Positions 11,399 through 64,000 of a DNA stretch of 64,000 bases are shown here, in pieces; the stretch's first letter is position 1, and every line of letters starts with the position of its first letter. Made by a program: the position numbers and the translations under genes. Source of the DNA: Rhizobium etli 8C-3 (GTDB taxonomy: Bacteria; Pseudomonadota; Alphaproteobacteria; Rhizobiales; Rhizobiaceae); contig NZ_CP017241.1 of the NCBI RefSeq assembly GCF_001908375.1, positions 3,041,001 to 3,105,000 on the forward strand. Direction: 5' to 3'. Under the pieces are notes generated by a model. The model saw only the letters and a program-made list of their open reading frames with translations, had not been told where the DNA came from and searched no databases.

Positions 11399-11431
11399 AT
11401 GCCGAAGGACGGATTTCTGGCAGAAAATACG

Positions 11432-16107: not shown

Positions 16108-16126
16108 CTCAGTCTCCCCGCAGCCC

Positions 16127-16260: not shown

Positions 16261-16314
16261 CATACAAGTGCGTAGCTTTTGTATGTTGACATTACACCTT
16301 GCTGGTTCTAGCCA
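16261..16314 (+). promoter_or_regulatory. Candidate operator-promoter of the second TRAP operon
   Basis: Inverted repeat CATACAA-N11-TTGTATG (16261-16285) directly abuts a consensus -35 TTGACA (16286-16291), followed after 17 bp by a weak -10 TAGCCA (16309-16314). It lies about 290 bp upstream of dctP, leaving a long leader. Regulator binding here would touch the -35 region. Confidence 0.4.
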
Positions 16315-16598
16315 TAGGGGGCCGGTTGGAGGAGCGGCAAGAATGAGGGGGTTCACCGATCCAAATCGAGACGAGCGCACGAGCCTCTATGGTGAGGTTG
16401 GAGCGTGCGTCATCGTGATCCCAATGGGACGCGATATCGGCATGTCTCAATCGACCTCTTCCATTTCCGGGCAGTTTCTCGATCGTGCCGGACCACCAGT
16501 GTCCGGAGGAGGGCCAAAGCTTGCTGGCCTTTCTTGTCGGCACGCAAAAAAGCGTACGGTCTCTGAAAATTAATCGTCATGCAAAACGGGAGGAGAGC

Positions 16599-41135: not shown

Positions 41136-41224
41136 GCTGTGCTTTCTTCGGTTTCGTTCAGTTTTGCGTGGCGTTGCATGTGCCGAGAGGCGCTGTCAAG
41201 ATTCGTCGGGAGCGGAGTTTTGTT

Positions 41225-45563: not shown

Positions 45564-46787
45564 CTATTGTGACGTGTTGTCTCGAACGACATTGTTGCCG
45601 CCCCTGCTAACGATCAGATCGCGACCACCACCGACGATCCTGTTTCCTTCGACATTGTTGTTGTCAGCAAAGTCTGCATTGCTTGCGCTGCTGCCAAATG
45701 GATAGGCCGGATCGGTAAAGCAATAGTCCTTGCCGCCGTTACGGGATCCCAGCCAAACTGCCGGTTGCTTTCGGCCAGAAGAATAACGAAACGTGTTTTG
45801 CGTTATTTGATTGAATTCCGGTTTCTGGTGGCGAATAACGCCGCCTTCTCCGCAATTGCGATAGACGAATATTCCGCCATTGTCGGAGTTTTCGAACGTA
45901 TTACGGGAAATCGTATTTCTTGCAGAACCATCGATAGCTATCAACTCACGCTTGTCCGTTTTGATGCTGAAGACGTTTCCGGAGATCGTGTTGCGGGCTG
46001 ACTCGGCGTCAAGATATACGGCAACGGCGGTGCTGCGACCTGATATTTGAGACGATATCAAAGCCGCTCCTGTTACGCCCGGCCCCACATAGAACGGTAT
46101 GCCACCGGGTGCTTCGATCCGAACTTTCTCAAATCTCACGTTGGCCGGCGCCGCGGCCTGGGCATAAGTGGTGTGATCAGGCTTGAGCGAAGAAGCCTTC
46201 ATGACTTCTCCGTTCGCATTTTCTCCGAGACCGTAAATCCTGACAAATCCTCTGATCCGGCAGTTACGAATGGTGACATTGCGCGGAGCATCCCACTGCC
46301 CCGACGCAATCCGCGTCGAGCGAACGACGATCCCTGTCTTCTGCATCCGTGAACTACCGGAACTGACGTCGATCAGCCCCCCGCCACAATCAAGTACTGC
46401 GTTTGAAGCGGAACTTCCTTCGAAGATCAACTGACGGGTCACGACGTCGCGCGAAGACAGCTGGATATTGCACCGCAAGGAAACCGGCTCTGAACCAGGG
46501 GCCCTTATTTTGGAGATCGTCGCCTGTCCGCACGGTGTGCTTTGCCCAGCGTCTTCGCTTGGTGGCGAGGTGTCGGTGGGAGGCTCCTCGACCGGAGTTA
46601 ATGGCCCGGTGTTTTCGTCATCAGGCGACGGCACGGAGGGGTCCGGCGGTCGCTGAGGATGCGGCCTCTGATATCCAAGATCGGGCTGCAAAAATGAGCT
46701 GTCAATATAGGGCGCTGCGCCCTGGCAGCCGACCAGCAAGGCGAGGCCCGTTGACATTATGACAGCTTTCGTCTTGTCGAGTATCAT
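45564..46787 (-). CDS. Right-handed beta-helix lipoprotein
   Basis: A 407-residue envelope protein. The signal peptide with lipobox LALLVGC (Cys near residue 21) predicts a lipid anchor. It is followed by a Pro/Ser/Asp/Thr-rich linker (about 35-85: RPHPQRPPDPSVPSPDDENTG) and a parallel beta-helix domain (about 90-407) with repeated short strands such as NTISGNVFSI, NTISRNTFENS, NQITQNTFRYS, NNVEGNRIVGG and NNVVRDNTSQ. Such domains bind or cleave polysaccharides (lyases, epimerases, acetylesterase scaffolds). I see no catalytic set that would name an activity. GGAGATAG precedes ATG 46787, 58 bp after rkpJ on the same strand, so a role on exported capsule at the cell surface is likely. Confidence 0.8.
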   Translation of the reverse strand: MILDKTKAVIMSTGLALLVGCQGAAPYIDSSFLQPDLGYQRPHPQRPPDPSVPSPDDENTGPLTPVEEPPTDTSPPSEDAGQSTPCGQATISKIRAPGSEPVSLRCNIQLSSRDVVTRQLIFEGSSASNAVLDCGGGLIDVSSGSSRMQKTGIVVRSTRIASGQWDAPRNVTIRNCRIRGFVRIYGLGENANGEVMKASSLKPDHTTYAQAAAPANVRFEKVRIEAPGGIPFYVGPGVTGAALISSQISGRSTAVAVYLDAESARNTISGNVFSIKTDKRELIAIDGSARNTISRNTFENSDNGGIFVYRNCGEGGVIRHQKPEFNQITQNTFRYSSGRKQPAVWLGSRNGGKDYCFTDPAYPFGSSASNADFADNNNVEGNRIVGGGRDLIVSRGGNNVVRDNTSQ

Positions 46788-46845
46788 TCTATCTCCGTTG
46801 CCCCACGTCGCGCGAATCTCCACCCGATTTCTTACCAGATGTTCG

Positions 46846-48147
46846 TCAAGGAACGTCTATTTTCACAGGATGTTTGCGGATCGGCGGCTCTACGTAGGCG
46901 CCCGGCTCGTTGACATTTCGCACCAGCAACCTCGAGGCAATGCTTTCGGCTGCTGCCTTCGCTCCCTCTTTCGAATAGAAGTTGCCGCGAACCTGCACGG
47001 AGGCAGCGAGCAATCGCATGAACGCGCCAAGAAGCTTTGCCGATGGCGGTTGTGGATCTTGCCAGAAACGATCGATGGAACCTGGATCCGTCAGCCCTTC
47101 GATATCATAAATCGTCACTCCGAGCGTCTTAACGGGCTTTCCTGCCTGCAATGCGGAAAGCGCAGCTGTCGAATTGACTGTGACCATGCCCCGGCTTGCA
47201 GCGATCAGCGTCGAGAGATCACCGCCGTCGATAACCTGCACGCGACCGGACAGGCCGAGCGACAGGGCCGTGGCGTTCACATAGTCGTCCCAGTCGATAA
47301 GCCCGTTATCGAGCGGATGGACTTTGACGAGCAGCTTCGCTTCTTGCGGTGCGTGCTCGGCAAATGAACGCAGAATATAGCGGATCGCATCCCGCTGGCT
47401 GTGGAAAGGCGAATGGGCGCGCAGCTGATAGTCGGTTTCAATCTGCAGGGGATAGACAAAGAACGCAGCATTATCGGAAGACAGCTGGCCAATTCTCAAA
47501 TTCGCCTCGCGGGCCCTCTTGCGGCCTGTTGCGAGCCTTCTCAGCCAGCCGGCATATTCGGCGAGCGGATGAAATAGCCCGTGCCGCCGGTAATGAGGAT
47601 AAAAGAGCGAGAGGAACACGGTCGGCAGGTAATACAGGAGATCGGCGATCGCTTCGGAGAGGAAAGTGTGACTGTAGCGCCTGTTCCAATCGGGTTCCGG
47701 CAGGCCTTCCGCAGCCGCAAGTATATGATCCGGATCAGCGGGAAAGCGTGAGTTGGACGAAAGGCCCTCGCGCTCGATCGTCACCCAATCGGGCCTAAGA
47801 TGCCCCATCTCGATTGCGTAGATCGAAACGCCCATCATGCGGGCTTCGGCGATGGCAGCACGGTGATAGGGTCTTTCCTCGCCGTGGACGATAAGGTCGG
47901 TGATCTTGCTGTCGGCGATGAGATGACGGACATAGCCCGACCAGGCGGCGAAAGGACCCCGATAGTTCAAGGCACCTCGCCTGCGCCAGAACAGCCAATC
48001 CCCGCTGTTGAGGTTGACGCGGAGGCACGCGCAGCCTGCTGCCTCAAGACGGTCCGCGATCCGGCAATAGAGCATGGACGATGGCCCCTGGAGAAACAGG
48101 AAGACGCGTTTCGCCTTCTCCTCTGAGCGGACCACCGGCACGATCAT
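46846..48147 (-). CDS. rkpJ: RkpJ, KpsS-like capsule (Kdo) transferase/export protein
   Basis: A 433-residue protein of the capsule polysaccharide biosynthesis (KpsS/KpsC) family. It starts with RVFLFLQGPSSMLYCRIADRL and shows family stretches AIEMGHLRPDWVTIEREGLSSNS near 145, FFVYPLQIETDYQLRAHSPF near 250, LLVKVHPLDNGLIDW near 295 and VTVNSTAALSALQAGKPVKTLG near 345. KpsS enzymes put the first beta-Kdo on the lipid acceptor of group 2 capsules. Its start overlaps the stop of rkpI (ATGA), which fixes ATG 48147. The position after rkpI matches the Sinorhizobium rkpAGHIJ order. Confidence 0.9.
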   Translation of the reverse strand: MIVPVVRSEEKAKRVFLFLQGPSSMLYCRIADRLEAAGCACLRVNLNSGDWLFWRRRGALNYRGPFAAWSGYVRHLIADSKITDLIVHGEERPYHRAAIAEARMMGVSIYAIEMGHLRPDWVTIEREGLSSNSRFPADPDHILAAAEGLPEPDWNRRYSHTFLSEAIADLLYYLPTVFLSLFYPHYRRHGLFHPLAEYAGWLRRLATGRKRAREANLRIGQLSSDNAAFFVYPLQIETDYQLRAHSPFHSQRDAIRYILRSFAEHAPQEAKLLVKVHPLDNGLIDWDDYVNATALSLGLSGRVQVIDGGDLSTLIAASRGMVTVNSTAALSALQAGKPVKTLGVTIYDIEGLTDPGSIDRFWQDPQPPSAKLLGAFMRLLAASVQVRGNFYSKEGAKAAAESIASRLLVRNVNEPGAYVEPPIRKHPVKIDVP

Positions 48148-49739
48148 TGCGCCGGCAACTCTTTGCTGAGGCCGGCATAGCGCAGCAGCGTTCCGAGCAG
48201 GTTCCATGGCGCTTCTTCCCGCGGAGGAACAGGACGCTGCGAATGCGAGCGAGCGCGACCGAGCGGCACGATCACGTAATCGGTACGAGGGTCCGGAAAC
48301 GGATCGGCGAAAGCCTTCAAGAGCGGCGCATGATCGCCGTAGAAGAGCAACCAGACTGGCCGGTCCAGCGTATCGAGATGATGGGCCAGGTTTCCAAGGG
48401 CGTGATCGGCGCGACGAAGGAGCTCGGAATAGATCTCCACAGAATCCGTGAGGTCACCGACGCGACCGGCCTCCCAGGGGCCATGGTTGGCCATTGAGGC
48501 GACGAACAGGAAATTCTTGATGTCCGGATCCTTTTCGATCTCGCGGATAACGCTTTTCGTCAGCATCTGATCGCTCACATAAGGGCCGTCGCGCTCCGGA
48601 TTGTGATCGAATTCGTCGAGCATCATCATGTGATCGAAGCCGAGCTGCGGCATTGCCTTATGACGCAGGAAGAAGGTACGGTCATAGGGGTGAATGAACT
48701 GCGTCTTCCAGCCGGCATCCTTCAGCTTATTCGGCCAAACGACATCCGCATATTGGCTTGCGCTCAGATAGGGGTAGCTCGCATCGATATGCACGTCGTC
48801 CGGCTGAAGTCCGCTTAAGACTGCAAATTCTGTGCGAAGCGTATAACCGCCTTCGAACACGCTGGTCATGCGGCCCCACTGCGCCGCCCGCTTGCGCAGC
48901 CGATCAAGATTGGGAAGCTTCAGGTCTTTGACCTCGAAATGACGAAGGTCGATGAAGGATTCCGACTGCCAGACGACGATGAGCGGCGGCTCTTCGTCGC
49001 CGTCCGGATCCCAAAGATCGTGCAGCGCCGACTTCAGCATGACCGACAGCTCGTGCACGATCTTCTCGCGGCGGCGGCCAAGCCATATGATAAAATGCAG
49101 GACGACAGACGTGAACGTGCCGAAGCGGACCGTATTCTTCTTGATATCGATCGGTCCAACGAGCTGCTGAGTGGCCCGCGAAACCGGCCCGTTCACGGGA
49201 CCATAGAAAAGCGCCAGCCACGGGCCGAAGGCAACGGCAAGTCCGACCAGCACCGAGAACAGCCGTGCGCTGTCAGGCAAGATGTGCGGCTCGAAGTAGA
49301 AATAGAGCCCGGTCACGCCGAAAACGTACAGGAACGAGAATATCCAGAAGAAGACGTTGAGCGAGGTCGCATAGAAAATCTCCTTGTATTTGAAGACATC
49401 GACGACGAGCGCGATATCGGAGAAAATCAACGGCTCTCTGATGAACTTGAATTTGGCGCGTGAAATCCCGGTGAAAATCACAAAGAAGCTCATCGTCGCC
49501 TGCATGGCGTAGATCGGCCGCCACGTCACCGAAAAGAACCCCGCAAAGACCAGAGCGATAACCGGAAGGCGCGCGGCAAGATCGAGCGCATAGCGCGCGG
49601 GTGTCCGCTCGATCTTGTTCTGGCGATAGACGACAGACGGCATCGCGAACCAGTCCGTTGCGTAGACGAAGAGGCACGTCAGGACGAAGCAGGAGGCAAC
49701 CAGTAGAAAGGGGACATCATGTAAGCGCAACGAAACCAT
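48144..49739 (-). CDS. rkpI: RkpI, membrane sulfatase/LTA synthase-like phosphotransferase
   Basis: A protein of about 531 residues with five or so membrane helices in the first 215 residues and a C-terminal alkaline phosphatase-type domain (about 255-500). The domain starts PPLIVVWQSESFIDLRHF and contains SVFEGGYTLRTEFAVLSGLQPDD (the nucleophile region, Thr in GGYTLRTEF), FLFVASMANHGPWE with His, and LLFYGDHAPLL with Asp-His as metal ligands. Related enzymes transfer phospho-alcohol groups from lipids (LtaS, EptA). In Sinorhizobium, RkpI is needed for K-antigen. The start is ATG 49739; a TTG 30 bases upstream is possible. It overlaps rkpJ by 4 bp. Confidence 0.9.
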   Translation of the reverse strand: MVSLRLHDVPFLLVASCFVLTCLFVYATDWFAMPSVVYRQNKIERTPARYALDLAARLPVIALVFAGFFSVTWRPIYAMQATMSFFVIFTGISRAKFKFIREPLIFSDIALVVDVFKYKEIFYATSLNVFFWIFSFLYVFGVTGLYFYFEPHILPDSARLFSVLVGLAVAFGPWLALFYGPVNGPVSRATQQLVGPIDIKKNTVRFGTFTSVVLHFIIWLGRRREKIVHELSVMLKSALHDLWDPDGDEEPPLIVVWQSESFIDLRHFEVKDLKLPNLDRLRKRAAQWGRMTSVFEGGYTLRTEFAVLSGLQPDDVHIDASYPYLSASQYADVVWPNKLKDAGWKTQFIHPYDRTFFLRHKAMPQLGFDHMMMLDEFDHNPERDGPYVSDQMLTKSVIREIEKDPDIKNFLFVASMANHGPWEAGRVGDLTDSVEIYSELLRRADHALGNLAHHLDTLDRPVWLLFYGDHAPLLKAFADPFPDPRTDYVIVPLGRARSHSQRPVPPREEAPWNLLGTLLRYAGLSKELPAQ

Positions 49740-49775
49740 CGATTTTCTATTACCGGCAATAAATGCCAAATCCGA

Positions 49776-50639
49776 TTAAAGCTTGGGCGTGTCAATGCCC
49801 GATGATATCCCTGTCTTCAAATGCACAGTCGATGACCTTGCATGCGTTTCCCTTACGCCACGCTTCAATCGATAACGGTACCAGCGCGAAAGCAGCGGCT
49901 TGATGAACGGTCCCAGATAGGCAAGCGCCATGAGAGATGGCGTAAAGTGGATCTTCGAGCGGTTGCGGTCGATACCGGCGATAATTCGCTGCGCAATTGC
50001 TTCGGCCGTCCACGGCTTCACCTTGCCCATGAGAACCTCGGCCTGCCATGGCCGCATCGTCATTTCGCGCTGATACTGGGGTGTCAGCGTGTCCGGCGGA
50101 AAGCAGATGGAGACGCGAATTCCCGTTCCGACAGCTTCCGCCTGAACGGCTTCGGCAAAGCCCTTGAGGGCGGATTTGGAGGCGCAATAGGCCGCATAAC
50201 CGTGAAGGCCAATCAATGCGGCACCCGACGAGACCACCATGATGGTCCCCTGCCCCCTCGCCTTCATGCTGTGATAGACGGCACGGGCGGCATTTGCCGT
50301 GCCCAGGAGATTTGTGGTTATTTGCTGGTCGAAGGCCGCTGCTGGAAGAGCGTCGAAGGCGGCCGGTTCGACGATGCCGGCAGAGGCGATCAGCACATCG
50401 CAGTGGCCGTTTGCCGTTTCACAGGCTTTGACCGCAAATGCCAGGTCCTCATGTTTGGAAACGTCAGCCGAAAAGGCAAAAGCGCTTCCGCCTTTCGATG
50501 CAGCCTTGACCTCTCGAAGCGCCTGATCCAGGCGTTCGGCATCGCGTGCGATCAGCGAAACACGCTCGCCTCTGGCGGCGTAAGCCTTTGCGACTGCTAA
50601 TCCGATGCCGCTTGAACCGCCGGTTACGATGACATGCAT
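49776..50639 (-). CDS. rkpH: RkpH, short-chain dehydrogenase/reductase
   Basis: A 287-residue classical SDR. The cofactor loop is TGGSSGIGLAVA (residues 6-17), NAG-like ASAGIV at 85-90, catalytic Ser near 138, Tyr151 and Lys155 (YCASKSALKGFAEA). The sequence, including the C-terminal hydrophobic and basic tail (SLMALAYLGPFIKPLLSRWYRYRLKRG), resembles 3-ketodihydrosphingosine reductases. That would let it reduce the keto group of the alpha-amino ketone made by RkpG (inference). It lies 13 bp after rkpG. In Sinorhizobium, rkpH mutants lose K-antigen. Confidence 0.9.
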   Translation of the reverse strand: MHVIVTGGSSGIGLAVAKAYAARGERVSLIARDAERLDQALREVKAASKGGSAFAFSADVSKHEDLAFAVKACETANGHCDVLIASAGIVEPAAFDALPAAAFDQQITTNLLGTANAARAVYHSMKARGQGTIMVVSSGAALIGLHGYAAYCASKSALKGFAEAVQAEAVGTGIRVSICFPPDTLTPQYQREMTMRPWQAEVLMGKVKPWTAEAIAQRIIAGIDRNRSKIHFTPSLMALAYLGPFIKPLLSRWYRYRLKRGVRETHARSSTVHLKTGISSGIDTPKL

Positions 50640-50652
50640 TGCATCGTCCTGC

Positions 50653-52065
50653 CTAAGGCTTGCCCGCCATCTGGTTCATCGGCAGGAGTTTCATGACCTT
50701 TTCGAAGTCGATCGAACCTAGGCCGAAATTGCGGTCCTGTAAATCTTTGAGCCGCTTCGCTGTCACAGTGACAGCGTGGGCAATCTGCTCATCCGTGTGA
50801 TTGCAGGTGATGAAGAAACGCAGCCGCGCCATGCCCTCGGGAACTGCCGGATGGATGATCGGAAGCGCGTTTATGCCCTCTTCGAGAAGATCATTGGAAA
50901 GCTGCACGGCCCGAACGGAATCGCCGACGATCACCGGAACGACGGAATAACCGGTCGCAAGGCCGGTATCGAGACCGGCGTCCTTCGCAAGCCTGAGAAA
51001 GAGCGCGCCGTTGCGCCGCAGGCGGGCAGTACGGTCCGGCTCTTTTGCCAATATTTCAAGGCCGGTCAATGCCGCAGCCGCCAGTACCGGCGCCAGGCCG
51101 ACACTATAGACGAAGCCACCGGCTTCGGCCTTCAAGACGTCCGCCAGGGCCTGGCTTCCGGCTATATAGCCGCCGCAGCTCGATGTGGTCTTGGAAAGCG
51201 TTCCCATCCAGATGTCGACGTCATGTGGATCGATACCGCAATGTTCGAAGCTGCCGCGACCAGTTTCTCCAAGGACCCCGAGAGCGTGTGCCTCATCGAC
51301 CATCAGCCAGAAGCCGTAACGCGACCTTAGCTCGACCAGGGCCGGCAGGTCGGCGATATCGCCATCCATCGAATAGACGCCTTCGACAATCACCAGGATA
51401 CGGCGGAAGTCGGAGGACAGTGTCTTCAGAACGGATTCGAGGTTCTCGACATCATTATGCTTGAAGAGACGTCGTGTCGCGCCCGATTGCTTGATGCCGG
51501 CAAGCGCACTGTTATGAATGAATTCGTCATGGATCACGAGGTCTTGCGGGCCCATCAGACAGCTGATCGCAGCGACATTGGTCAGGTAGCCGCTGACGAA
51601 GCAGACGGCAGCGTCGACCCCGTAGACCTTGGCAAGTGCATGTTCGAGTTCGACATGCACGGGCCGCTCTCCGGCAACCAGCCGGCTTGCCGACGCAGAA
51701 ATGCCAAAGCGATCTATCGCCTCTTTTGCCCGCTGGTTGACGAGCGGGTCCGTATTGGTTGCGAGGTAGTCATAAGAGGCAAAGTTTGCGAATTCCCGGC
51801 CGGACATGACAGTCGTTGCACCTGCCGCCTTGTCATGAGACCGGTAGAAGGGGTTGCCGATGCCGGCCATCTGCGCCCCGATCTTCTGGGTCATCACCCG
51901 CTGGTATTCCGGCAATTCGTCGAATCGTGTCACCTGGCGAACCGGCGACTGAGGGTGGCGGTTCATCCGGGCTGTCCGGTTTCTGCCGGACGACTCGTTG
52001 GCGTGCCGCATCTGATCGAGCAGTCCCGTTTTCCGGTCCTGCGCCTTGCCTTCTGAATTGGTCAT
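50653..52065 (-). CDS. rkpG: RkpG, alpha-oxoamine synthase (AONS/SPT family)
   Basis: A 470-residue PLP enzyme of the 8-amino-7-oxononanoate synthase / serine palmitoyltransferase family. The PLP Lys is K292 in GTLSKTTSSCGG, the ring-binding Asp lies in VDEAHALGVLG (257-267), and the family start NFASYDYLATNTDP is near 94. Such enzymes condense an amino acid with an acyl thioester, releasing CO2. The ~70-residue N-terminal extension is longer than in BioF. Its start lies one base after the rkpA stop (TGAAATG), so it is tightly coupled to the synthase whose acyl-ACP it presumably offloads. In Sinorhizobium it is required for K-antigen. Confidence 0.92.
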   Translation of the reverse strand: MTNSEGKAQDRKTGLLDQMRHANESSGRNRTARMNRHPQSPVRQVTRFDELPEYQRVMTQKIGAQMAGIGNPFYRSHDKAAGATTVMSGREFANFASYDYLATNTDPLVNQRAKEAIDRFGISASASRLVAGERPVHVELEHALAKVYGVDAAVCFVSGYLTNVAAISCLMGPQDLVIHDEFIHNSALAGIKQSGATRRLFKHNDVENLESVLKTLSSDFRRILVIVEGVYSMDGDIADLPALVELRSRYGFWLMVDEAHALGVLGETGRGSFEHCGIDPHDVDIWMGTLSKTTSSCGGYIAGSQALADVLKAEAGGFVYSVGLAPVLAAAALTGLEILAKEPDRTARLRRNGALFLRLAKDAGLDTGLATGYSVVPVIVGDSVRAVQLSNDLLEEGINALPIIHPAVPEGMARLRFFITCNHTDEQIAHAVTVTAKRLKDLQDRNFGLGSIDFEKVMKLLPMNQMAGKP

Positions 52066-52066
52066 T

Positions 52067-55000
52067 TCACATTGCCGCTTTCTGAACGGTGCCAGAATGA
52101 CTCTGGATCAGTTGGCTGACAACCTGCTCGGCGTCGCCTACCCCCTCGTTTCCACTGCTACGGCTGGCCACGCGCTCCCGAAGACGAGCCACGACATCGC
52201 CAATGGTCGTGCCATCGCTGATACCGCTCAGTGGTATGTCGAAACCGGTCTTCTGCTGAAAGCTCATGCCGAGTTCCATCGCCATCAGGCTGTCAAGCCC
52301 GATGTCCTTGAGCACCTTTTCCGGTGTGATTCCATCTTCGGTGATGCGCAGGATCGCTGCGATTTCGGCAGCCACCAGCTTATGGAGGAGAGCCTGCGCT
52401 TCATCTGCAGACTTGCCGGCGATCATCGCCTCAAGGTCAATGGTTTCGTTGTCATTGACCGCCTGGCTGCTTCCTGCCTGGCGCATGATCGTCTCGAAAA
52501 GCGACTTTCCGGCAATTGGCAGAAGGCGCGCCGCGCTCCAGTCAACCTCGGCGATCATGACGGTCGCACCCTCGATACGGCCCTGGTCGGCAAGCATGTA
52601 GCGCTCGACCTGCTCAAGCGCATCGCTCGCTTTCAAGGCCGACTTGCCGATGCGCTTCGAAAGCACCTCGTTCACCTCCGCGTTACGCGCCAGGTAGCCC
52701 TTGTCTGCAATCGCGCCGAAGCCGACCGCCAGACCGGCAAGTCCGGCTGCGCGACGCTGGCGCGCCAAACCTTCGAGGTAGCCGTTGGCTGCGACATAAT
52801 TCGCCTGACCTGGATTGCCGAGCATCGTCGTCGCAGACGAGAACAACAGGAAGAGGTCGAGGTCGTCATCTGCCGTCAACCGGTGGAGGATTTCCGCGCC
52901 CTTGACCTTTACGTCGACGACGGGCCGGTTGCGTTCTGCCGTGAGGTTCGAAAGCAGGGCATCGTCAAGCACCATGGCTGCATGGACGATCCCCTTCAGC
53001 GGCGCCTTGGTGCGCAATTCGCCAAGCAGGTCGGCGACCGCCCTCTCCTCGGTGATGTCGCAAGCATGCACACTTGCCGTTACACCCCTCTTTGTCCATT
53101 CGGCGATCGACTTGCGGGTCTCGTCGTCGGCAACACCCTTCCGTGAACAGAGCGCGATCTTGCGGGCGCCTTTCGAAACCAGCCAGTTTGCGGTTGCAAG
53201 ACCGAAGCCGCCGATGCCTCCTGCCACAAGGAATATGCCGTCAGAACTGAAGTGAAGCGCCTTGCCGGGTACCGGAAGGACCTTGTCCCTGCCGATCACC
53301 GGGGGACGGACGACGATCTTGCCGATGTGACCAGCATTCTGCATGAGACGGAATGCGCTGCTGATCTCCTCATAACCGAAAGCGCGATATGGAATTGGCA
53401 CGAGTTTTCCAGCGGAGAACAACTCTCCGATTTCGGTAAAGATCCGCTTCGTGAGTTCCGGCACATTGACGAGAAGCTGATCGGCATCGATGCCGAAATA
53501 GCTGATATTGCGGCGGAACGGTCTCAGCCCGATCTTCCGGTCGGAATAATAGTCGCGCTTTCCAAGTTCCAGGAAGCGCCCGAACGGCTTCACGAGCTCC
53601 AGGCTGCGCTCCATGGCTTCGGAGAAGAGCGAGTTGAGAACCAGATCGACACCGGCGCCATCGGTAATCCGGCGGATATCGGTCACGAAGTCGAGGGAGC
53701 GCGAATCGAAGACATGATCGGCGCCAAGCGTTTCCAGGAAACGGCGCTTCTCAAGCGTTCCGGCGGTGGCAATGACCGTCGCGCCCTTCAGTTTTGCGAT
53801 CTGCAAGGCGGCCAGGCCGACACCGCCTGCGGCACCATGGATCAGGATCGTCTCGCCGGGCTGAATGCGACCGAGCTCGACCATGGCGTAATAGGCCGTG
53901 AGGAACGCAACCGGCACGGTTGCCGCAGCGACCGTATCCATCCGTTCGGGTAGCCTGGTGACACCATCCCGGCGAACTCTCACATGCGTCGAGAAGGCGG
54001 CTGGGCCGATGCCCATCACCTTGTCGCCGGGCCTAAGATCGCTGACGCCCACGCCCGTTTCGACAACCCGTCCGGCAAACTCCATGCCGATCGTGGCGCC
54101 AGCAAAGCCGTCCTCCAGTGCTTCCTCGGGGAGCAGGCCCATCGCCCACATGACATCGCGGAAGTTGAGACCCGTTGCTTCGACGGCAACGACGATCTCA
54201 CCGTCGGCAGCAGACAGTACTTCACACGCTTCCCAGGCAACACTGTCGAGGCGTCCGGCCGAATGCTGGCGGATCGTGGCAGCGGCATACCCGCCGGTCA
54301 TCCGGGCCGAGGACGCTGAAGGCCCGGTAACAGCGCGCAGTTCACGGACCTCGCCGGTTTCCGCATCGAGCAGCCATTCGCGGTTTGCCCCTTGTGATGC
54401 GAAGATCGTATTCACGATGCCTGAAACGCGTTGATCGCCGGGTTCCGCATCGAGCATGTGAACGTCCAGGAATTCATATTCATTCTGCAGGACACGGGCA
54501 AAGGCCCAAAGTCCGGAGTTTGCACCGTCGGTCCGATCACGGGAAAGCGGCGATCCGCCGGGCGCGATCAGAAGAAGCTGCGGCCGGCTGTTTGCGGCAG
54601 GCTCGCCGGATTGCATGTAGGCGGCAAGCGCTTCTGCAAAAGCCGTAAATGTGACGAGCCGATCCTGTGACAGCTTGGATGGATCTTCGTTCAATGCGCG
54701 CTCGGCATAATAGACTGCACGCACCGGCTGGCCCGCAAGTTTGGAGAACGCTTCAGCATAAGCCGGCTTCGGCTCGTTCGCCGAAACGGATATTGTTGCC
54801 ATCCGCCAGAAGTCCAAGGTGTGGCTCGAGCCTTCGCCGATCACAAGTAGCGGGCCATTGCCAGCCTCGGCGGCCAACGACTTTTCTGTCACCACCTTCG
54901 GCTGAGCGATCAGCGAAAGGAGCCTGCCTTCCGGATACTCGGCTTCCTCGACACTTGCGTCCGCAAATCCAAGCGAATGTGCGAGATCCTCAATCTGCCG

Positions 55001-58000
55001 GGCGGTGCCCAGCTTTCCGATCGGAAACTCCGGAGACTGACTGCCTGCAAACCAACCGTCCGACAGGCCGAATACGAAGTCGTTGAAAACGGAAGGCGCT
55101 CGGTCGGCAAGGACGAGCGCCGCACCGTGAGCGGCTGCCTTGCGCACGGCCGACTGGAGCGCCTCGTCGCTGGAAAGATACTGCTGGCTCTGATCGCCCG
55201 CAGCGACAACCAGATCGGCCGCGGCATCATCGCCGAGCTTATCGGGGTCGGCGACAACGACATATGCACTGTCTTCGAATGCGAGTTCAAGCGCCCGCCG
55301 GATATTTTCACGCGGTTCGGCAATGACGAGCAAAGCGCCGTGTTCGGCTGCCGCCAGGGCAAGCTTGCGGCTAAAGGCGGCCGAGATCGACCCAACTTCC
55401 AGAATCCGACGGACACCGCCTTTTTTCGCTTTCAGCACACCATCGACCATGCCGCTTACGACGGAAAGTCGTTGCAAGCTCAACGGCGAATGGACGAGAA
55501 CATGCTCCAGCGTCGCTTCGCTGACCGACTTCGAAGAAGGAACGTCGGCGCCGTGCTTGAGGGCCGCGATCTTCTCGAGAGCATCGCGATGCGCATCGTT
55601 GATGAGGACGGCTTCCGCGATACGGCCGGCATCCTCACCATAGAGTTCCCGCAGAACCTCCTCGACCGGCGGCAGCGTGAATTCGGTCGCAACGGTCCAT
55701 TTTCCATCATCGGAAGAGGCAATGCCCGCGTCTTCAAGGCTGAAGAGGCAGCTGGTGAGGAAAGATCGGAACGCGGCATCGCCGGGAAGGCTGCCAATCG
55801 GAAGCGAACCATCCTTTGCCGCGAGCGCAATCGCGATCTCATGGCATGCGCGATAGACGGCAGCGTCAAGCAGAAGGGTTGCGTTATTCAGCGCAACGTC
55901 CGAGGCACCGGCAAGGACCGGAAGCGCATGAATGTCGGATGTCGCGGCAAAAAGCGCGGACGGGACGCTCTCATAGTGAAAGGCGACGGAATCCAGCGTG
56001 TGGTGACGCCTAAGATACGTCCGGCGGAAGCGGCAATCGTCGAATGCCGCAACTTGCGTGCCGGCATCGTCGAACATCCGGAAACGCACCTTGATCGAAT
56101 TCTGGCTGAACCTCTCGATCCCGATCGTCGCCTTGACGACTGGCCGTTCGGAACGCCTGACGCGCACGGAGCCGAAACGCACAGGGATATAGGGCGCGCC
56201 TGCCTGATCGCCGGACAGCTGATCGAAAAGAGCCACCAGACCGTGAAACGCTGCATCGACCGACATCGGATTCAGATTGTAGGTCAGGTAAGGGTGAGCA
56301 GCCTTTTGTGCCGTCTTGAGATCGACCTCTATCAGACCGTGGCCGAAAGCGACGGCCTTCGACAACAGCCTGAAATGCGGACCATATTGCAGGCCGAAGC
56401 GCTCAGCTGTCTCATATGTCTTTTCGGCCGTCAGAACCGATTTGACTTCGCCAGCAACGGGGGCTGCGCGCTCATCGGCCACGGCATCGATTGTCTTGCG
56501 CACCCGGGCTACGGCATGAACGGTCCAGTCGTCGTTGCTCAACCGTTCGCGCGAGCGGATTTCGATGTTGCCGGTTTCGGGAGAAAGGACTGTCGAAAGT
56601 TCGGCGATACGATCCTGCCGCAGTTCCAGCGGCCGCACGATCTCCAGATTTCCGATTTCGACCTCGTCCGTATCGTAATATTGCTGCGCAGCTGTTACGG
56701 CAATCTCGATGAAGCCGCTGCCAGGCATGATCGCCTTTGAATCCACGACATGCTCTGCAAGGTCCGGCAGCAGGTTGGCGTCGACATGGTTCTTCCAGCT
56801 CGATGCGTTCGGATCGGTTCGCCAGCCGAGCAGCGTATAAGGCACACGCTGATCGCGGCCGAAGATGTCGATCTCGTCGCTCGTCGGCTGTGGACGCAAC
56901 TCAACATTCTCGAATGGCAACGGCGGAAGTTGAATGAAGGCATTGCGACCGGCGGCGTTGCGCGAGCGAAGCGGCGATACGCCATGAGCCACAGCACGCG
57001 CGAATGACTGGGCGACTGGATCGCGGCCGGTCCCGCTTTCACGCGCGAGCGTCGGGATTACGGCCGCTTGATGAGAAATGCTCTTTGCGATGTCCGTCAC
57101 ATAGTTCGAAAGAATTGGGCGCGGCGAGATTTCGATGAAAAGGTTGCACCCCATCTCCATCGCGGCTTCACAAGCGTCCTTGAACAGCACCGGGTCGCGC
57201 ACGTTGCGCCACCAATAAGCCGTGTCCAGCGTCTGGCCATCCGCATGGCGGCCCGTGACGGTGGAAATGAATGTGCCAGTGCCGGCATCTGGCTCGAGAT
57301 CCGGCAGATCGTCGAAGAATGCATCCTTTGCCCGATCGATGATCGGATGATGGAACGGATAATTGATATCGAGCACATGCGCGACGATCTGCGCCTTGCG
57401 GGCGGCGTCGCGGAAGGCTTGGACCTCGTCTGATGGGCCAGAAATCGTCACCGAATTCGGCGCGTTGATGGCTGCGATGCAGATATTGTCGAAGCCGTTC
57501 GCCTTTGCGAAGGCAAGCGCGGCATCCGCGCTCATGACGACCGCTGCCATCTTGCCTTCGCCGGCGAGCAGGTCCTGATGCTGCGAACGCTTGGCGACGA
57601 TCGCCACAGCTTCCGCGGCCGTCAGCACCTTGGCTGCGTAGGCAGCGGCAATTTCGCCGACTGAGTGACCAAAAACCGCATCGGGTCTCAGGCCCTGCGC
57701 CGAGAGACAGTCGGTCAACGCCGCCTGAACCGCAAACAACATCGGCTGAGCGATCTTGGTGTCCGCGAGCCGCTCCGGCAGGTCTTTGGAAAAAAGCAGA
57801 TCGGTCAGCTTTTCGCCGAGATAATATTCAAAGAGAGCGCTGAAGGACTGGAAGCACTGGCGGAAATGGGCGTTTTCGCGATAGGCGTCCACGCCCATGC
57901 CCGGCCATTGCGAGCCGTTTCCGGCAAAGACAAATGCAACCCGCACGCCTTGACCAGGAACCTCGCCATGCTCACCAGCCGTCGGCTCACCTGCCAGATG

Positions 58001-59515
58001 AGCACTGATTGCCGCCAGCACTCCGTCGCTGTCTTTCGCTTTGACAGCAAACCGGTGTCGCATTGCCTCACGGTTCGCCACCGCGGAAGCGACAAGCTGG
58101 CGCGCCTCTCTCGTTGCGGCCTGCTCCAGACGCTGCTTATAGTCATCAAGCAGACCCTCAAGCGCCGAGGCGCTATGGGCGCTTGCCATGAAGATGACGC
58201 GATCACCCTTTGCTTGCGGCTCAGGCGGTGCGACAGGATCCGGATCGCTGATCACGACATGGGCGTTCGTGCCGCCAAAGCCGAATGAGTTTACGCCTGC
58301 AAAGCGCGGGGTTTTCGCAGGCATCAGCTCGATCGGAGAGGTGTTGACGCGAACGTTCAGATCCTCGAAATCGATGTCTTCGTTGGTCCGCTCGATATGA
58401 AGCGTTGCCGGCAGGAAATTGTTTTCAAGCGCAATGACTGCCTTCAGAAGACCGAAGAGGCCGGAGGCTGGTTCGGTATGACCGATATTCGATTTGATGG
58501 AGCCAATCGGAACTGGCGCCCGGCGGTTCTTGCCGATGACGCTGCCGATGGCCCAGACTTCAGCGGGATCGCCGACGCGGGTGCCGGTACCATGGCCTTC
58601 TATGAAGGCGACGCGGTTCACATCGATATTGGCGCCTTCGTAAACCGACTTGAGGAGGGCAGCCTGCGCCTCCCGCGACGGCAGGGAAATGCCGTTGGTA
58701 CGGCCTGAAGAATTGACGCCGGTTGCATGAAGGCGGGCGTAGCTGCGGTCCCTTTCGCGCAGGGCCTTGTCCGTGCGGCGAAGCACAAGCACGACGCCCC
58801 CTTCGGCACGCACATAGCCATGGCCGTTCGTGTCATAGGCGCGGCACAAGCCTTCCGGCGACAGCATACGTGCCTGCGCAAAGCCGACGAAGGACAGCGG
58901 ATGCGCCAAAAGATTGATCCCGCCCACGATTGCCGTATCGATGTCGCCTCGATCGAGCGCGCGCACGGCCTGGTCGAGCGCCACCAGCGACGACGAACAG
59001 GCCGTGTCAATCGTCATACTTGGACCACGCAGCCCGAAGATATGCGAAATGCGGTTCGAAACGATCGAAAGCGTATTGCCCGTCATGAAATAAGGGCTGC
59101 CGGTCGCCGGATCCTCGACGGCCAGGTTGCCGTTATCCAGGCTTGATGCACCGACATAGACCCCCACCTGCTCGCCACTCAGGGAAGCCGCAGGAAGATT
59201 GGCGTCCTCCAGCGCACGCCAGACAAGGCTCAGCAATATCCGCTGCTGCGGATCCATCTGCATCGCTTCGCGCTGGGAAAGACCGAAAACAGCCGGATCG
59301 AAATGATAGACGTCCGTAAGAACGCCGGCGGCAAACGTGTAGGTCTTGCCCTGGATGCCTTGATGCGGGTGCCAATAGCGGGCGAGCTGCCAGCGCTCGG
59401 CAGGGATTTCGCTGACGGTGCACTTCCCGTCCTCGAGAATTTGCCGCAGTTCATCCACGGAAGAAGCGCCTGGAGCAACGCTTGCGCGCCCAATAATCTC
59501 AATCGTCATGTTCAC
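52067..59515 (-). CDS. rkpA: RkpA, type I polyketide/fatty acid synthase-like protein
   Basis: A 2482-residue megasynthase. Order: ketosynthase (about 5-425; Cys173 in DTACSSSL, His in EGHGTGT and in KSNIGHTEP), acyltransferase (about 525-830; GHSVGEIAAAYAA), dehydratase (about 905-1180; LAEHVVDSKAIMPGSGF), a degenerate methyltransferase-like region (about 1370-1480; ILEVGSISAAFSRKLA), enoyl reductase (about 1770-2080; LNFRDVMWAMG and HGAAGGVGLAALQIAK), ketoreductase (about 2105-2290; VAGGIGGFGLATANWL) and one acyl carrier domain (Ser2409 in GLDSLMAME). No thioesterase is present. The reducing set suggests a saturated or nearly saturated chain, made iteratively and passed to RkpG. The start at 59515 has no strong ribosome binding site, and ATG 59509 is two codons on. 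It matches the fused rkpA of Sinorhizobium. Confidence 0.93.
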   Translation of the reverse strand: MNMTIEIIGRASVAPGASSVDELRQILEDGKCTVSEIPAERWQLARYWHPHQGIQGKTYTFAAGVLTDVYHFDPAVFGLSQREAMQMDPQQRILLSLVWRALEDANLPAASLSGEQVGVYVGASSLDNGNLAVEDPATGSPYFMTGNTLSIVSNRISHIFGLRGPSMTIDTACSSSLVALDQAVRALDRGDIDTAIVGGINLLAHPLSFVGFAQARMLSPEGLCRAYDTNGHGYVRAEGGVVLVLRRTDKALRERDRSYARLHATGVNSSGRTNGISLPSREAQAALLKSVYEGANIDVNRVAFIEGHGTGTRVGDPAEVWAIGSVIGKNRRAPVPIGSIKSNIGHTEPASGLFGLLKAVIALENNFLPATLHIERTNEDIDFEDLNVRVNTSPIELMPAKTPRFAGVNSFGFGGTNAHVVISDPDPVAPPEPQAKGDRVIFMASAHSASALEGLLDDYKQRLEQAATREARQLVASAVANREAMRHRFAVKAKDSDGVLAAISAHLAGEPTAGEHGEVPGQGVRVAFVFAGNGSQWPGMGVDAYRENAHFRQCFQSFSALFEYYLGEKLTDLLFSKDLPERLADTKIAQPMLFAVQAALTDCLSAQGLRPDAVFGHSVGEIAAAYAAKVLTAAEAVAIVAKRSQHQDLLAGEGKMAAVVMSADAALAFAKANGFDNICIAAINAPNSVTISGPSDEVQAFRDAARKAQIVAHVLDINYPFHHPIIDRAKDAFFDDLPDLEPDAGTGTFISTVTGRHADGQTLDTAYWWRNVRDPVLFKDACEAAMEMGCNLFIEISPRPILSNYVTDIAKSISHQAAVIPTLARESGTGRDPVAQSFARAVAHGVSPLRSRNAAGRNAFIQLPPLPFENVELRPQPTSDEIDIFGRDQRVPYTLLGWRTDPNASSWKNHVDANLLPDLAEHVVDSKAIMPGSGFIEIAVTAAQQYYDTDEVEIGNLEIVRPLELRQDRIAELSTVLSPETGNIEIRSRERLSNDDWTVHAVARVRKTIDAVADERAAPVAGEVKSVLTAEKTYETAERFGLQYGPHFRLLSKAVAFGHGLIEVDLKTAQKAAHPYLTYNLNPMSVDAAFHGLVALFDQLSGDQAGAPYIPVRFGSVRVRRSERPVVKATIGIERFSQNSIKVRFRMFDDAGTQVAAFDDCRFRRTYLRRHHTLDSVAFHYESVPSALFAATSDIHALPVLAGASDVALNNATLLLDAAVYRACHEIAIALAAKDGSLPIGSLPGDAAFRSFLTSCLFSLEDAGIASSDDGKWTVATEFTLPPVEEVLRELYGEDAGRIAEAVLINDAHRDALEKIAALKHGADVPSSKSVSEATLEHVLVHSPLSLQRLSVVSGMVDGVLKAKKGGVRRILEVGSISAAFSRKLALAAAEHGALLVIAEPRENIRRALELAFEDSAYVVVADPDKLGDDAAADLVVAAGDQSQQYLSSDEALQSAVRKAAAHGAALVLADRAPSVFNDFVFGLSDGWFAGSQSPEFPIGKLGTARQIEDLAHSLGFADASVEEAEYPEGRLLSLIAQPKVVTEKSLAAEAGNGPLLVIGEGSSHTLDFWRMATISVSANEPKPAYAEAFSKLAGQPVRAVYYAERALNEDPSKLSQDRLVTFTAFAEALAAYMQSGEPAANSRPQLLLIAPGGSPLSRDRTDGANSGLWAFARVLQNEYEFLDVHMLDAEPGDQRVSGIVNTIFASQGANREWLLDAETGEVRELRAVTGPSASSARMTGGYAAATIRQHSAGRLDSVAWEACEVLSAADGEIVVAVEATGLNFRDVMWAMGLLPEEALEDGFAGATIGMEFAGRVVETGVGVSDLRPGDKVMGIGPAAFSTHVRVRRDGVTRLPERMDTVAAATVPVAFLTAYYAMVELGRIQPGETILIHGAAGGVGLAALQIAKLKGATVIATAGTLEKRRFLETLGADHVFDSRSLDFVTDIRRITDGAGVDLVLNSLFSEAMERSLELVKPFGRFLELGKRDYYSDRKIGLRPFRRNISYFGIDADQLLVNVPELTKRIFTEIGELFSAGKLVPIPYRAFGYEEISSAFRLMQNAGHIGKIVVRPPVIGRDKVLPVPGKALHFSSDGIFLVAGGIGGFGLATANWLVSKGARKIALCSRKGVADDETRKSIAEWTKRGVTASVHACDITEERAVADLLGELRTKAPLKGIVHAAMVLDDALLSNLTAERNRPVVDVKVKGAEILHRLTADDDLDLFLLFSSATTMLGNPGQANYVAANGYLEGLARQRRAAGLAGLAVGFGAIADKGYLARNAEVNEVLSKRIGKSALKASDALEQVERYMLADQGRIEGATVMIAEVDWSAARLLPIAGKSLFETIMRQAGSSQAVNDNETIDLEAMIAGKSADEAQALLHKLVAAEIAAILRITEDGITPEKVLKDIGLDSLMAMELGMSFQQKTGFDIPLSGISDGTTIGDVVARLRERVASRSSGNEGVGDAEQVVSQLIQSHSGTVQKAAM

Positions 59516-59733: not shown

Positions 59734-60912
59734 CTAATCGTTCATGTTGTTGTATATTCCAGCGCTCTGCGCGGCAATACCGACCGGTTGGCCCACAATT
59801 CCCAGGAACATACGAATATCGACGGCAGGATGGCGCGAGATGTAGATAACGTCGCGATTCTTGACCGGGAAGGTCTGTCCGACGATCAGGCTATCCGGAT
59901 GACTCATGTCGAAACGGTAAACGATCGGATAGCGGCCCACGCTGTCTGGGGCCAATCCCTTGTTCAGCAGCTCATGGAACCGCTTGGTGCCAAGCAGGCT
60001 CATGACGACATCGGGTTCCTCATAGCGGAACAGGAAATATCCTTTTGCGTCCGTCGCCAGATCATTGCCGCCTCGACCAAGCGCGACCGCCTCCAGCAGA
60101 TTGAGATCGTTTGCGCCGAAATTGATACGAGCGTTAAGATTGGCGGAGCCGAGGATTGTAAACGTTCGCGGGTCCTTCGACACGAAAATCCGGTCGCCGG
60201 GCTGGACGTAAATGTCTTCCGATGGATTTTCGATGATCGACTTCAGGAGCGCCGTGCCGGTTTTCTTGCCGCGGACGAGCGTAACATAGGCTTCGTAGGG
60301 CTGCGCCTGAGAGCCACCTGCCTTGGCGAGCACCTCGGTGATCTTCTCGCTTACGAGACTCAAAGGCACCTGGGACGGCTTGCCGACCTCACCGGACACC
60401 GTGACATTTCGGGATGCGGTGCTGACACTCGTCACGATCACGTCCGGCTCGACGGCTTTGTTCGCCAGCGACGCAAGAATTGCCTTACGAGCTTCCTCGA
60501 GCGTCTTGCCCTCGAACTGGACCGATCCAGCATAGGGAATTGCGGCCATACCATCCGGCTGAACTACGATATCGAGGTTCGTCTGCTTCGATTCCGTCGT
60601 CGAGAAGAGCCCGTCGCTGCCTGCTTCGAAAATCGTAACCTTTAGGTGATCCCCAACGCCGATCACCACGCGACCCACGCCACCGCCAATACCGAAACGG
60701 CGATTGAGAGCAGTCGCCACATAGTTGGAAACAAGAGTGGCAGAACGGCTGTCAACGTCGACAATATCGAAAACGGCGGCATTACGGCGGCCGACTTCTG
60801 CGGCGGAACGTCCGGCGTCCTTGTTTATAGTATCAGCAAGAGGTCCTTGCGCAGGCAGCCCCTGGCAGCCCGCCAAGGCAAGGCAGATCAACACAATACT
60901 CGATCGAACCAA
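59734..60912 (-). CDS. Outer-membrane polysaccharide export lipoprotein (OPX; KpsD/Wza-like)
   Basis: A protein of about 392 residues. I chose the TTG at 60912 because GAGGGAAATC lies upstream and a lipoprotein leader (MVRSSIVLICLALAGC) starts there; the longer frame adds an implausible N-terminus. After the lipobox comes a polysaccharide export domain (about 80-170: VGDHLKVTIFEA and the nearby PDGMAAIPYAGSVQFEGKTLEEARKAI). SLBB-type domains follow (VTVSGEVGKPSQVPL near 205; FTILGSANLNARINF near 270). OPX proteins form the outer-membrane channel or gate for capsule export. It may correspond to rkpU, the gene next to rkpA in Sinorhizobium, but I am not certain. It ends in its own terminator. 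Confidence 0.85.
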   Translation of the reverse strand: MVRSSIVLICLALAGCQGLPAQGPLADTINKDAGRSAAEVGRRNAAVFDIVDVDSRSATLVSNYVATALNRRFGIGGGVGRVVIGVGDHLKVTIFEAGSDGLFSTTESKQTNLDIVVQPDGMAAIPYAGSVQFEGKTLEEARKAILASLANKAVEPDVIVTSVSTASRNVTVSGEVGKPSQVPLSLVSEKITEVLAKAGGSQAQPYEAYVTLVRGKKTGTALLKSIIENPSEDIYVQPGDRIFVSKDPRTFTILGSANLNARINFGANDLNLLEAVALGRGGNDLATDAKGYFLFRYEEPDVVMSLLGTKRFHELLNKGLAPDSVGRYPIVYRFDMSHPDSLIVGQTFPVKNRDVIYISRHPAVDIRMFLGIVGQPVGIAAQSAGIYNNMND

Positions 60913-61264
60913 TTGATTTCCCTCGATATCGGCGATGACATTGATCCTCGATGCCACAGCCGACCTATTTGCAAAAGATTCTAATTGGCACCTGCAAAGC
61001 ACACTGAACGTCTCACAACAAGCCAATTGGCGGACCGATCCCTAAAAAAATCACAGCTGCGTTATCAATGCCATAGTGCAGTAAGGGCTCAACCACGCTC
61101 CCGCGAGCAGCCCCAGCGAACTATCTACAATTTGAGTTAAAGGCGCTTAAACGGGCCACGGCGTGAATCGATGCATGTGCCTAACTTCCTCGCGGGATTG
61201 CTGAAACAACGCTGCGGGAGATTTATCCGCTAGATTTCGTGAAGAGGGACCTTGGGCCGCCGAT

Positions 61265-62326: not shown

Positions 62327-64000
62327 TCAGCTTCTAGCGGCTCTATCGGCTCGCATTTGAAGTATAATATCGATTATCTTCTCGATCTCGACCAGCGCTC
62401 CCGAGCTGGCGTCGACATATATAGATTGCTTTATACACGAGACATAGAAGATTTCTTCAATAGAACGGCGCATGGTTCGACGACTGATCGGCATTCGGTC
62501 GTCGGTTAGCCCCCAGCCCGAGAAGAACGGGATGCCAAAAGTAACGACACGCTTGTTGCGCATCAAAGCTTCAAAGCCGACCTGAGACGAAACGGTGTAG
62601 ACAGCCTCGCATTGATCGATAATGGCGCCGATCGAAACATCATCCGGAAGGACGGTGACTGCAGAACGTGTTCGGTCACGGTATGAGTTCATATTGCGGT
62701 AAATACTGTCAGGATGTCGCTTGAAGTACACCGGCTTGCCGGGATTATCTCGGATGGCAGCATCGAGCATATCTGCGAACGTCTGATCGGTCGCGCCGGA
62801 GAACTCGATAGAGGCATCGCCCTTCTTTTGGTCGATTATCAGGACAGCGTCTCGCTCAAGGTGATACGGCGCGCTGTCGATGTATCGGTTATATTTTGTG
62901 ATGCGCTCGGCGCAAATGCGAGAAATGGCCGCTCTGGCGCGACTTGTCTCGGCCTCAGTAAGAACGAAGGAAGGATCGTTCAGCGTCCGCTCTATGCGAG
63001 ACGGCTGCCGAGCATCGAAGTAGTAGCCCATATCGTCAATCATGAAGCCAAGCGCTCTACGCTCGTTTAGCGTGGCGTCCGCGTCGAAATATGAGGAGAA
63101 CGCGCCAAACAGGGCAACTTCGACAAAATAGAGAGGCCTATCGTAGAGATAGGCCGATCTGATGCAATCCCAGAACATCGTTTGGTTGATGCGCTGCGAG
63201 AGCAGGAAAACGGCGTCGGGCGCCCGATCCTTGAAGAACGAGAATTTGGCAGTCTTCATGGCGGTCTTGATGTTTTCGGCGTATCCGCCGTCCATGTCGC
63301 TCTTGTTGACGTTGGACAGGATCTGGCTGTTTGGCGCTAAGCTACCAATTGTTTCTCCAGCGCTAAATGTGTTCGGTAGGTTGCGGGCACGTTCGACCAG
63401 GATCGACTTGAGCTCGACCGCGGACCCCGGCGCTGTTCCAGGGCTTGCGCGACCTACATTCTCGATCGCGGTGACGCGCTTGTTGAGTTTGTTGACATCA
63501 AGCCTGGTTCGACGCAGTCGCGCGATGCTGATTGCCGTCCCCGGGATGTATTTCGCGAAGAAATGCCGTAGCGGGCTCATAGGCTCAGGATTCTTCGTCC
63601 CTGGCTTCTTAGCCCCCCCTCCATACGGTTGTGGTTTGCTTATCTCCGCCGCATAAGGCGTCAGTGCAAGATATTTGAACCACTTGTCTGACTCCGGATG
63701 CTCGAGCGACATCCATGGCTTACGAGCGAGAGTATAATGTATCAACGACGGAGAAGATATTGCCTTAGCGGCTTCTGTTGCATCCATCGCGTTCTGGGAG
63801 CCAACGAAGCTATCGATCCAATTCGGCGCGAACATAGAACCGTGAACGTTCCACTTCACTGGCACATAGCGGATCGCATCGAAGAACAGCTCGGCGATGA
63901 TCTGCTGATCGCCTAGGGTGAGACGATAACGGTTCGCCTCAAGATACCTTTCGACAAGGCCATCGAAGCGGATGCGCCGCATTGCATCGATATTCACCAG
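62327..64000 (-). CDS. GT8-KpsC-like fusion: glycosyltransferase and Kdo transferase, 5' truncated
   Basis: The frame is open to the window edge, so the N-terminus is missing; 557 residues are visible. The visible start LVNIDAMRR, then LTLGDQQIIAELFF and LIHYTLARKPW (first ~95 residues), is the end of a GT8-type domain. A linker with a Pro/Gly/Lys-rich stretch and helices follows. The C-terminal ~250 residues form a capsule_synth (KpsC/KpsS) domain: VLIIDQKKGDASIEFSG, VYFKRHPDSIYRN, YTVSSQVGFEALMRNKRVVTFGIPFFSGWGLTDDR. The last motif is a hallmark of the beta-Kdo transferases that build the Kdo linker of group 2 capsules. It heads the minus-strand unit with the methyltransferase. Confidence 0.85.
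   Translation of the reverse strand: MVNIDAMRRIRFDGLVERYLEANRYRLTLGDQQIIAELFFDAIRYVPVKWNVHGSMFAPNWIDSFVGSQNAMDATEAAKAISSPSLIHYTLARKPWMSLEHPESDKWFKYLALTPYAAEISKPQPYGGGAKKPGTKNPEPMSPLRHFFAKYIPGTAISIARLRRTRLDVNKLNKRVTAIENVGRASPGTAPGSAVELKSILVERARNLPNTFSAGETIGSLAPNSQILSNVNKSDMDGGYAENIKTAMKTAKFSFFKDRAPDAVFLLSQRINQTMFWDCIRSAYLYDRPLYFVEVALFGAFSSYFDADATLNERRALGFMIDDMGYYFDARQPSRIERTLNDPSFVLTEAETSRARAAISRICAERITKYNRYIDSAPYHLERDAVLIIDQKKGDASIEFSGATDQTFADMLDAAIRDNPGKPVYFKRHPDSIYRNMNSYRDRTRSAVTVLPDDVSIGAIIDQCEAVYTVSSQVGFEALMRNKRVVTFGIPFFSGWGLTDDRMPISRRTMRRSIEEIFYVSCIKQSIYVDASSGALVEIEKIIDIILQMRADRAARS

Follow-up and report, generated by a model that had tools for sequence, protein, structure and literature searches.

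The window considered here, a stretch of 64,000 nucleotides from Rhizobium etli 8C-3, contains a capsule region in which rkpA, rkpG and rkpH encode, in this order, a polyketide synthase (PKS), a pyridoxal phosphate (PLP)-dependent alpha-oxoamine synthase (AOS) and a short-chain dehydrogenase/reductase (SDR), with rkpI and rkpJ beyond them (Table 1). The same three genes are found in the same order in the rkp-1 region (rkpABCDEFGHIJ) of Sinorhizobium meliloti and S. fredii, identity to the S. meliloti homologues being 73% for RkpG, 60% for RkpA (pSymB) and 52% for RkpH. Together, these genes may encode a capsule-specific sphingolipid pathway that ends in a phosphoglycerol-headed anchor.

Table 1. 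Genes of the rkp-1 locus and adjoining capsule genes, with their positions in the window
Gene	Position	Strand	Frame	Encoded protein
rkpJ	46846..48207	minus	start uncertain, overlaps rkpI frame	Capsule_synth (PF05159), KpsS-type
rkpI	48144..49769	minus	start uncertain (numbering from TTG 49769)	membrane protein, LtaS/GacH-type phosphoglycerol-transferase domain (PF00884)
rkpH	49776..50639	minus	287 aa	SDR
rkpG	50653..52065	minus	470 aa	PLP-dependent AOS, PKS-linked (SgaB-type) clade
rkpA	52067..59515	minus	2482 aa, GTG start	iterative-type reducing PKS, KS-AT-DH-ER-KR-ACP
rkpU-like	59734..61026	minus		polysaccharide export lipoprotein (Poly_export, SLBB)
KpsC-like	62327..63997	minus	cut by right window edge; 760-aa frame at L228:331-2610	Capsule_synth and GT8

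Enzymes of the rkp-1 locus

The Pfam domains of RkpA are ketosynthase (KS), acyltransferase (AT), dehydratase (DH), enoylreductase (ER), ketoreductase (KR) and, at residues 2381-2445 of 2482, a C-terminal PP-binding domain, the acyl carrier protein (ACP), with no Pfam match to a thioesterase family at E≤0.001. By motif, the KS residues (C/H/H), the AT serine, the nucleotide sites of ER and KR, and the GLDSL serine of the ACP are all there. A single base lies between the rkpA stop and the rkpG start, and 13 bases between rkpG and rkpH. RkpG matches Aminotran_1_2 and has the alpha-oxoamine synthase fold with its PLP lysine, K292; two alignments that contain RkpG (20 and 21 sequences) show no variation at K292, D257, H260 or H184. 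RkpH matches adh_short and carries the TGGSSGIG and YxxxK motifs. The initial annotation, which had described a PKS ending in an ACP without thioesterase, one base from an AOS gene with intact Lys292 and followed by an SDR gene, agrees with these data throughout.

With 120 relatives of an enzyme encoded on a Pseudomonas plasmid (the Pseudomonas-type AOS group), RkpG shares 50-56% identity, and it lies in one clade with PKS-linked enzymes of Pseudomonas, Burkholderiaceae and cyanobacteria (31 others and RkpG itself, support 0.88). This PKS-linked, or SgaB-type, clade is defined by an adjoining mono-modular PKS, which rkpG has. The scores of RkpG are below the cut-offs of all three canonical serine palmitoyltransferase (SPT) models, at 269 bits for NF047599 (cut-off 500), 287 for NF047600 (640) and 226 for NF047603 (670), and the highest, 352 bits with the BioF model TIGR00858, is also below its cut-off of 426. 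In the structural comparison with SPT that had been suggested as a check, the oxoamine-synthase fold was borne out, but SPT was not set apart from the other enzymes, being tied with KBL and ThAOS. The canonical SPTs of Caulobacter and Sphingomonas, with which RkpG would share fold and chemistry, form a separate clade and are described as having their own ACP and acyl-ACP synthetase in place of a PKS (PMC9386255).

A precedent for the three enzymes is reported in Pseudomonas fluorescens MYb115 (PMC12134224), where SgaA, a PKS, and SgaB, an AOS, are required for C24, C26 and C28 sphinganines, and SgaC is the proposed ketoreductase. Purified SgaB has measured SPT activity, condensing acyl-CoA surrogates with L-serine and preferring serine near-exclusively over alanine and glycine, and probable phosphoglycerol-sphinganines (+154 Da) were also detected in P. 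fluorescens. The MYb115 cluster, known here from the paper's description, resembles the rkp locus in having a mono-modular PKS, then an AOS, and an SDR as well. The step in locus tags from sgaB to sgaC (19800 to 19775) equals that from AOS to SDR on the Pseudomonas plasmid (26440 to 26415), which suggests that the MYb115 cluster may carry the same intervening genes as the plasmid. It differs from the rkp locus in being presented as a secondary-metabolite cluster, with 6,101 homologous clusters counted and no capsule link in the accessible text; indeed, 'rkp', 'wcb' and 'capsul' do not occur in the main text. The homology to SgaA, SgaB and SgaC supports the proposal of the initial annotation that the AOS offloads the PKS chain and that reduction then yields a long-chain amino alcohol, and RkpA, RkpG and RkpH very probably make a long-chain amino lipid.

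RkpI has an alkaline-phosphatase fold nearest to phosphoglycerol transferases, with the metal ligands and catalytic threonine also seen in LtaS, GacH and LtaP (E270, T310, H429, D479 and H480 are intact), and is a predicted phosphoglycerol transferase of the LtaS/GacH type. It differs from these enzymes in being only about 16-22% identical in structural alignments, GacH being the nearest solved relative, and in belonging to a capsule-linked Gram-negative family. RkpJ, which would add the first 3-deoxy-D-manno-oct-2-ulosonic acid (Kdo) to the lipid, shares 34% identity with a capsular biosynthesis protein encoded in the cluster of the Pseudomonas plasmid. PF05159 occurs at four places within 27 kb, two of these Capsule_synth genes lying with an ABC_tran (KpsT-like) gene just past the window edge (in L228); a KpsM permease was not identified in the capsule region.

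KpsS- and KpsC-type Capsule_synth proteins together with an ABC exporter gene place the capsule in the group 2 type (ABC transporter). In E. coli, the first Kdo is added to (lyso)phosphatidylglycerol by KpsS before extension by KpsC (PMC10148158, PMC7694667), so that the acceptor is a glycerophospholipid, whereas a dedicated sphingoid route is proposed for rkp-1; the phosphoglycerol head of the proposed anchor would be identical. The accessible part of one review (PMC4881576) says of the rkp-1 product only that it is a specific lipid carrier by which K antigen is exported. The poly-Kdo of S. meliloti is reported to carry a lipid anchor (PMC5539429; 'phospholipid anchor' appears in a title among its references), and homology between the rkp and wcb clusters is also on record (PMC3908369). 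No sphingoid reading of, or name for, the rkp-1 lipid was found in the accessible parts of the literature searched, nor any sphingolipid link to KpsC or capsule anchoring in the open-licence literature searched, and neither 'sphing' nor 'polyketide' occurs in the accessible part of a 2025 review of capsule attachment (PMC12220298).

Conservation and co-occurrence

From 581 confirmed RkpG-type loci the best-scoring 80 were named, and because only these were kept the set is skewed; 33 of them (L085-L117) are Rhizobiaceae-type, some being only Rhizobiales. Of these best 80, 79 contain a PKS match, 48 an SDR, 46 KpsS, 28 RkpI and 20 KpsC. The pairing of PKS and AOS is not due to chance, given its presence in 79 of 80 loci and the joining of both enzymes in one annotated protein on plasmid p3 of Planktothrix agardhii (L168:7584-15182, AOS at residues 2140-2531). 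All 28 loci with RkpI also have KpsS and an SDR, and 25 of the 28 fall in L085-L117. RkpI, KpsS and KpsC are all unseen in 33 of the 80 stretches, and in 15 of the 56 stretches of at least 20 kb. RkpI, SDR and KpsS are together on the strand opposite the PKS and AOS in Marinobacterium, Chitinilyticum and Paenalcaligenes, so that their association outlasts rearrangement. The motif PPDTxTP, which we take to be a KDSR motif, is present in 33 of 33 RkpH sequences of L085-L117 and in 0 of 15 from other loci; it is likewise absent from the SDR of the Pseudomonas plasmid cluster.

KpsS is present in nine of 13 further stretches with RkpI (four plasmids, nine genomes), and was not found in the stretches read from Caballeronia, G159 (which has KpsC), G543 and G041. 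The Pseudomonas plasmid has the order PKS, AOS, PhyH, KpsC-type, GNAT, LTA-synthase family, SDR, KpsS-type, KpsC-type, phosphotransferase, KpsF, kdsB, kdsA. PKS, AOS, SDR, RkpI-type and KpsS-type genes are all present on plasmids of Paraburkholderia and Shinella, and the first four in Caballeronia. The Caballeronia and Paraburkholderia relatives of the wcb capsule cluster of Burkholderia (wcbR being the PKS) have PKS, AOS, SDR, export and LTA-synthase family genes and differ from rkp-1 in that PKS and AOS are separated by an extra gene for an LpxC-like deacetylase (L167:16887-17798 and L166:16904-17830, respectively for Paraburkholderia and Caballeronia; one is also labelled in G543).

In 398 Pseudomonadota genomes, an RkpG-type protein (≥375 bits) was found in 17, RkpI (≥300 bits) in 14 and both in 12 (Fisher 2e-17, without phylogenetic correction), with cut-offs chosen after the scores were known and with four candidates scored per genome in the RkpG search and three in the RkpI search. 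Some genomes (G159, G321) have the two on separate contigs. Both genomes with RkpI and no RkpG, G523 and G546, have an SPT-clade protein (618 and 610 bits), so that a sphingoid-base source accompanies RkpI in all 14 strong cases (12 RkpG, 2 SPT). The SPT proteins of G523, G546 and G536 form a clade of 16 with twelve SPT matches and the S. wittichii SPT (support 1.0); those of G523 and G546 are below the NCBIfam cut-off of 670 bits, as is the Caulobacter control, a known SPT bearer. The background rate of NF047603 matches at E≤1e-100 is 13 in 115 alphaproteobacterial genomes.

In G523 and G546, RkpI adjoins KpsS and the cluster includes ABC-transporter genes; the 18 kb that were read contain no PKS, AOS or SDR. 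G536 has a weaker RkpI match (229 bits) with an SPT of 470 bits and KpsS one frame away. Taken with the RkpG pairing, this pattern indicates that where RkpI adjoins KpsS, a source of sphingoid bases of one origin or the other accompanies it, although G523 and G546, both of one family, amount to one or two independent cases. Among 115 additionally sampled genomes, RkpI is present in three, these being R. etli 8C-3 itself, G041 (with RkpG) and G007.

Proposed pathway and alternatives

From the genes, their domains, the intact catalytic residues and the conserved association, we infer the following reactions in R. etli. RkpA would build a long saturated acyl chain on its own ACP, and RkpG, replacing a thioesterase, would free it as a 3-ketosphinganine through decarboxylative condensation with an amino acid, L-serine being the most likely. 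Amino-ketone formation by RkpG is very probable, and serine is its likely substrate. RkpH would reduce the 3-keto group to give sphinganine, onto which RkpI would move phosphoglycerol, a reasonably probable step whose product, sphinganine-phosphoglycerol, is an analogue of lyso-phosphatidylglycerol. The KpsS-type RkpJ and the KpsC-type proteins might then place the Kdo linker on it, with the K polysaccharide built and exported on this anchor, for which the balance is even. For the whole chain, the probability is put at about 0.5. The initial annotation had suggested that the lipid might be an anchor or primer of the capsule; this gains from rkpI, which it did not mention, and from the association of rkpI with KpsS and with sphingoid-base sources, and it is still an argument from homology. 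PKS-to-sphinganine chemistry is already known from P. fluorescens; its use for a phosphoglycerol-headed capsule anchor would be new.

Several observations weigh against this pathway. L085, L086, L094, L110, L114 and L117 have PKS, AOS and SDR with no RkpI, KpsS or KpsC in the stretch. In L085, from Rhizobium sp. CF080, these genes (9974-16873) adjoin those of a Wzc-type protein (Wzz, GNVR and AAA domains) and a GDP-mannose dehydratase, and the lipid module may thus also serve other, Wzy-type polysaccharides. L149 (Stappia sediminis) has KpsS and KpsC homologues and no RkpI in the stretch. There is no RkpI match in five of the 17 RkpG genomes (G487, G391, G484, G189, G393), and G007 has RkpI with no RkpG-type protein or SPT found, in an assembly fragmented into about 810 contigs with RkpI alone on 3,066 bases. 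RkpH was placed neither in nor out of the KDSR branch to which the initial annotation had likened it, TSC10 (8jat) ranking only 19th among the solved chains by profile score (E 1.3e-29), and the C-terminal part of RkpH as query found no SDR. LtaS-type domains face outward and RkpI is probably periplasmic, whereas KpsS is cytoplasmic, so that a flip of the lipid out and back in must be assumed.

That periplasmic active site would suit a glycan acceptor, and GacH adds glycerol phosphate to polysaccharide. RkpA, RkpG and RkpH could then make sphinganine while RkpI puts phosphoglycerol on the capsule glycan or another periplasmic acceptor, in the manner of GacH and OpgB, leaving an anchor that is not phosphoglycerol-sphinganine. 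This would also fit the loci with RkpG and KpsS but no RkpI in the stretch (L149, L118) and those with RkpI but no KpsS (four of the 13 stretches read). It is unlikely, given the 14 of 14 pairing of RkpI with a sphingoid-base source, G007 being one further genome with none detected, and given that the Pseudomonas system yields lipids with phosphoglycerol-sphinganine masses (PMC12134224). Alternatively, capsule loss in rkp-1 mutants could be indirect, the sphinganine lipid not being a permanent anchor: it could serve transiently as a carrier, or be an independent sphingolipid that is secreted or belongs to the membrane. The term specific lipid carrier for secretion (PMC4881576), the description of SgaAB lipids as secondary metabolites (PMC12134224) and the Wzc-type neighbour without KpsS all point in this direction, but it is improbable, given that KpsS is present in every RkpI locus among the best 80 of 581 and that the Pseudomonas cluster contains kdsA, kdsB, KpsF and KpsC-type genes.

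An identity of about 54% does not fix a substrate, and both the BioF score of RkpG and its structural tie with KBL and ThAOS would be consistent with the use of glycine, alanine or another acyl donor, giving some other amino ketone or 1-deoxysphinganine. Such a product would have no C1 hydroxyl and would leave RkpI without an obvious acceptor, and we regard it as a long shot. The older view of RkpA as a fatty acid synthase and RkpG as a plain acyltransferase, giving an acyl lipid without an amino group, is scarcely credible in the face of the invariant PLP lysine and pocket residues of the RkpG family and the biochemistry of SgaB (PMC12134224).

The sphinganine-phosphoglycerol anchor can be extended, tentatively and with the balance slightly against it, to a widespread second class of ABC-transporter capsules, in which very-long-chain sphinganine-phosphoglycerol, from PKS, AOS and SDR or elsewhere from a canonical SPT, would be the dedicated KpsS acceptor. 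The SgaAB sphinganines and phosphoglycerol-sphinganines would then be capsule-anchor precursors, and the rkp-1/wcb lipid carrier a sphingolipid. If so, sphingolipids, unlike the ordinary phospholipid of E. coli, would anchor the capsules of many Proteobacteria, symbionts among them, that do not appear in lists of sphingolipid producers, and the host effects of SgaAB lipids would need to be read as capsule biology.

Other genes in and near the clusters

A PhyH-family oxygenase is encoded both in the R. etli capsule region to the right of the window (L228:8818-9936) and in the Pseudomonas cluster (L165:19252-20292), and could be a hydroxylase of the long-chain base. GNAT acetyltransferase genes are present in two PKS-AOS clusters (L165:22411-23010, L167:19198-19881), the enzyme being a candidate for capping the free amine. 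The fused PKS-AOS gene of Planktothrix is adjoined by glycosyltransferase family 39 genes.

Just after rkpJ, at 45564-46823 of the window, is the gene for a right-handed beta-helix protein with, by eye, a lipoprotein-like N-terminus. A Stealth-type (CR1, CR2) capsule phosphotransferase is encoded at 41168-42175, with two polysaccharide pyruvyl transferase-like genes nearby (39990-41135 and 43737-44558). Some 27-30 kb past the window edge there is an RTX-repeat protein with a serralysin-type C-terminal domain (L229:9037-11841).

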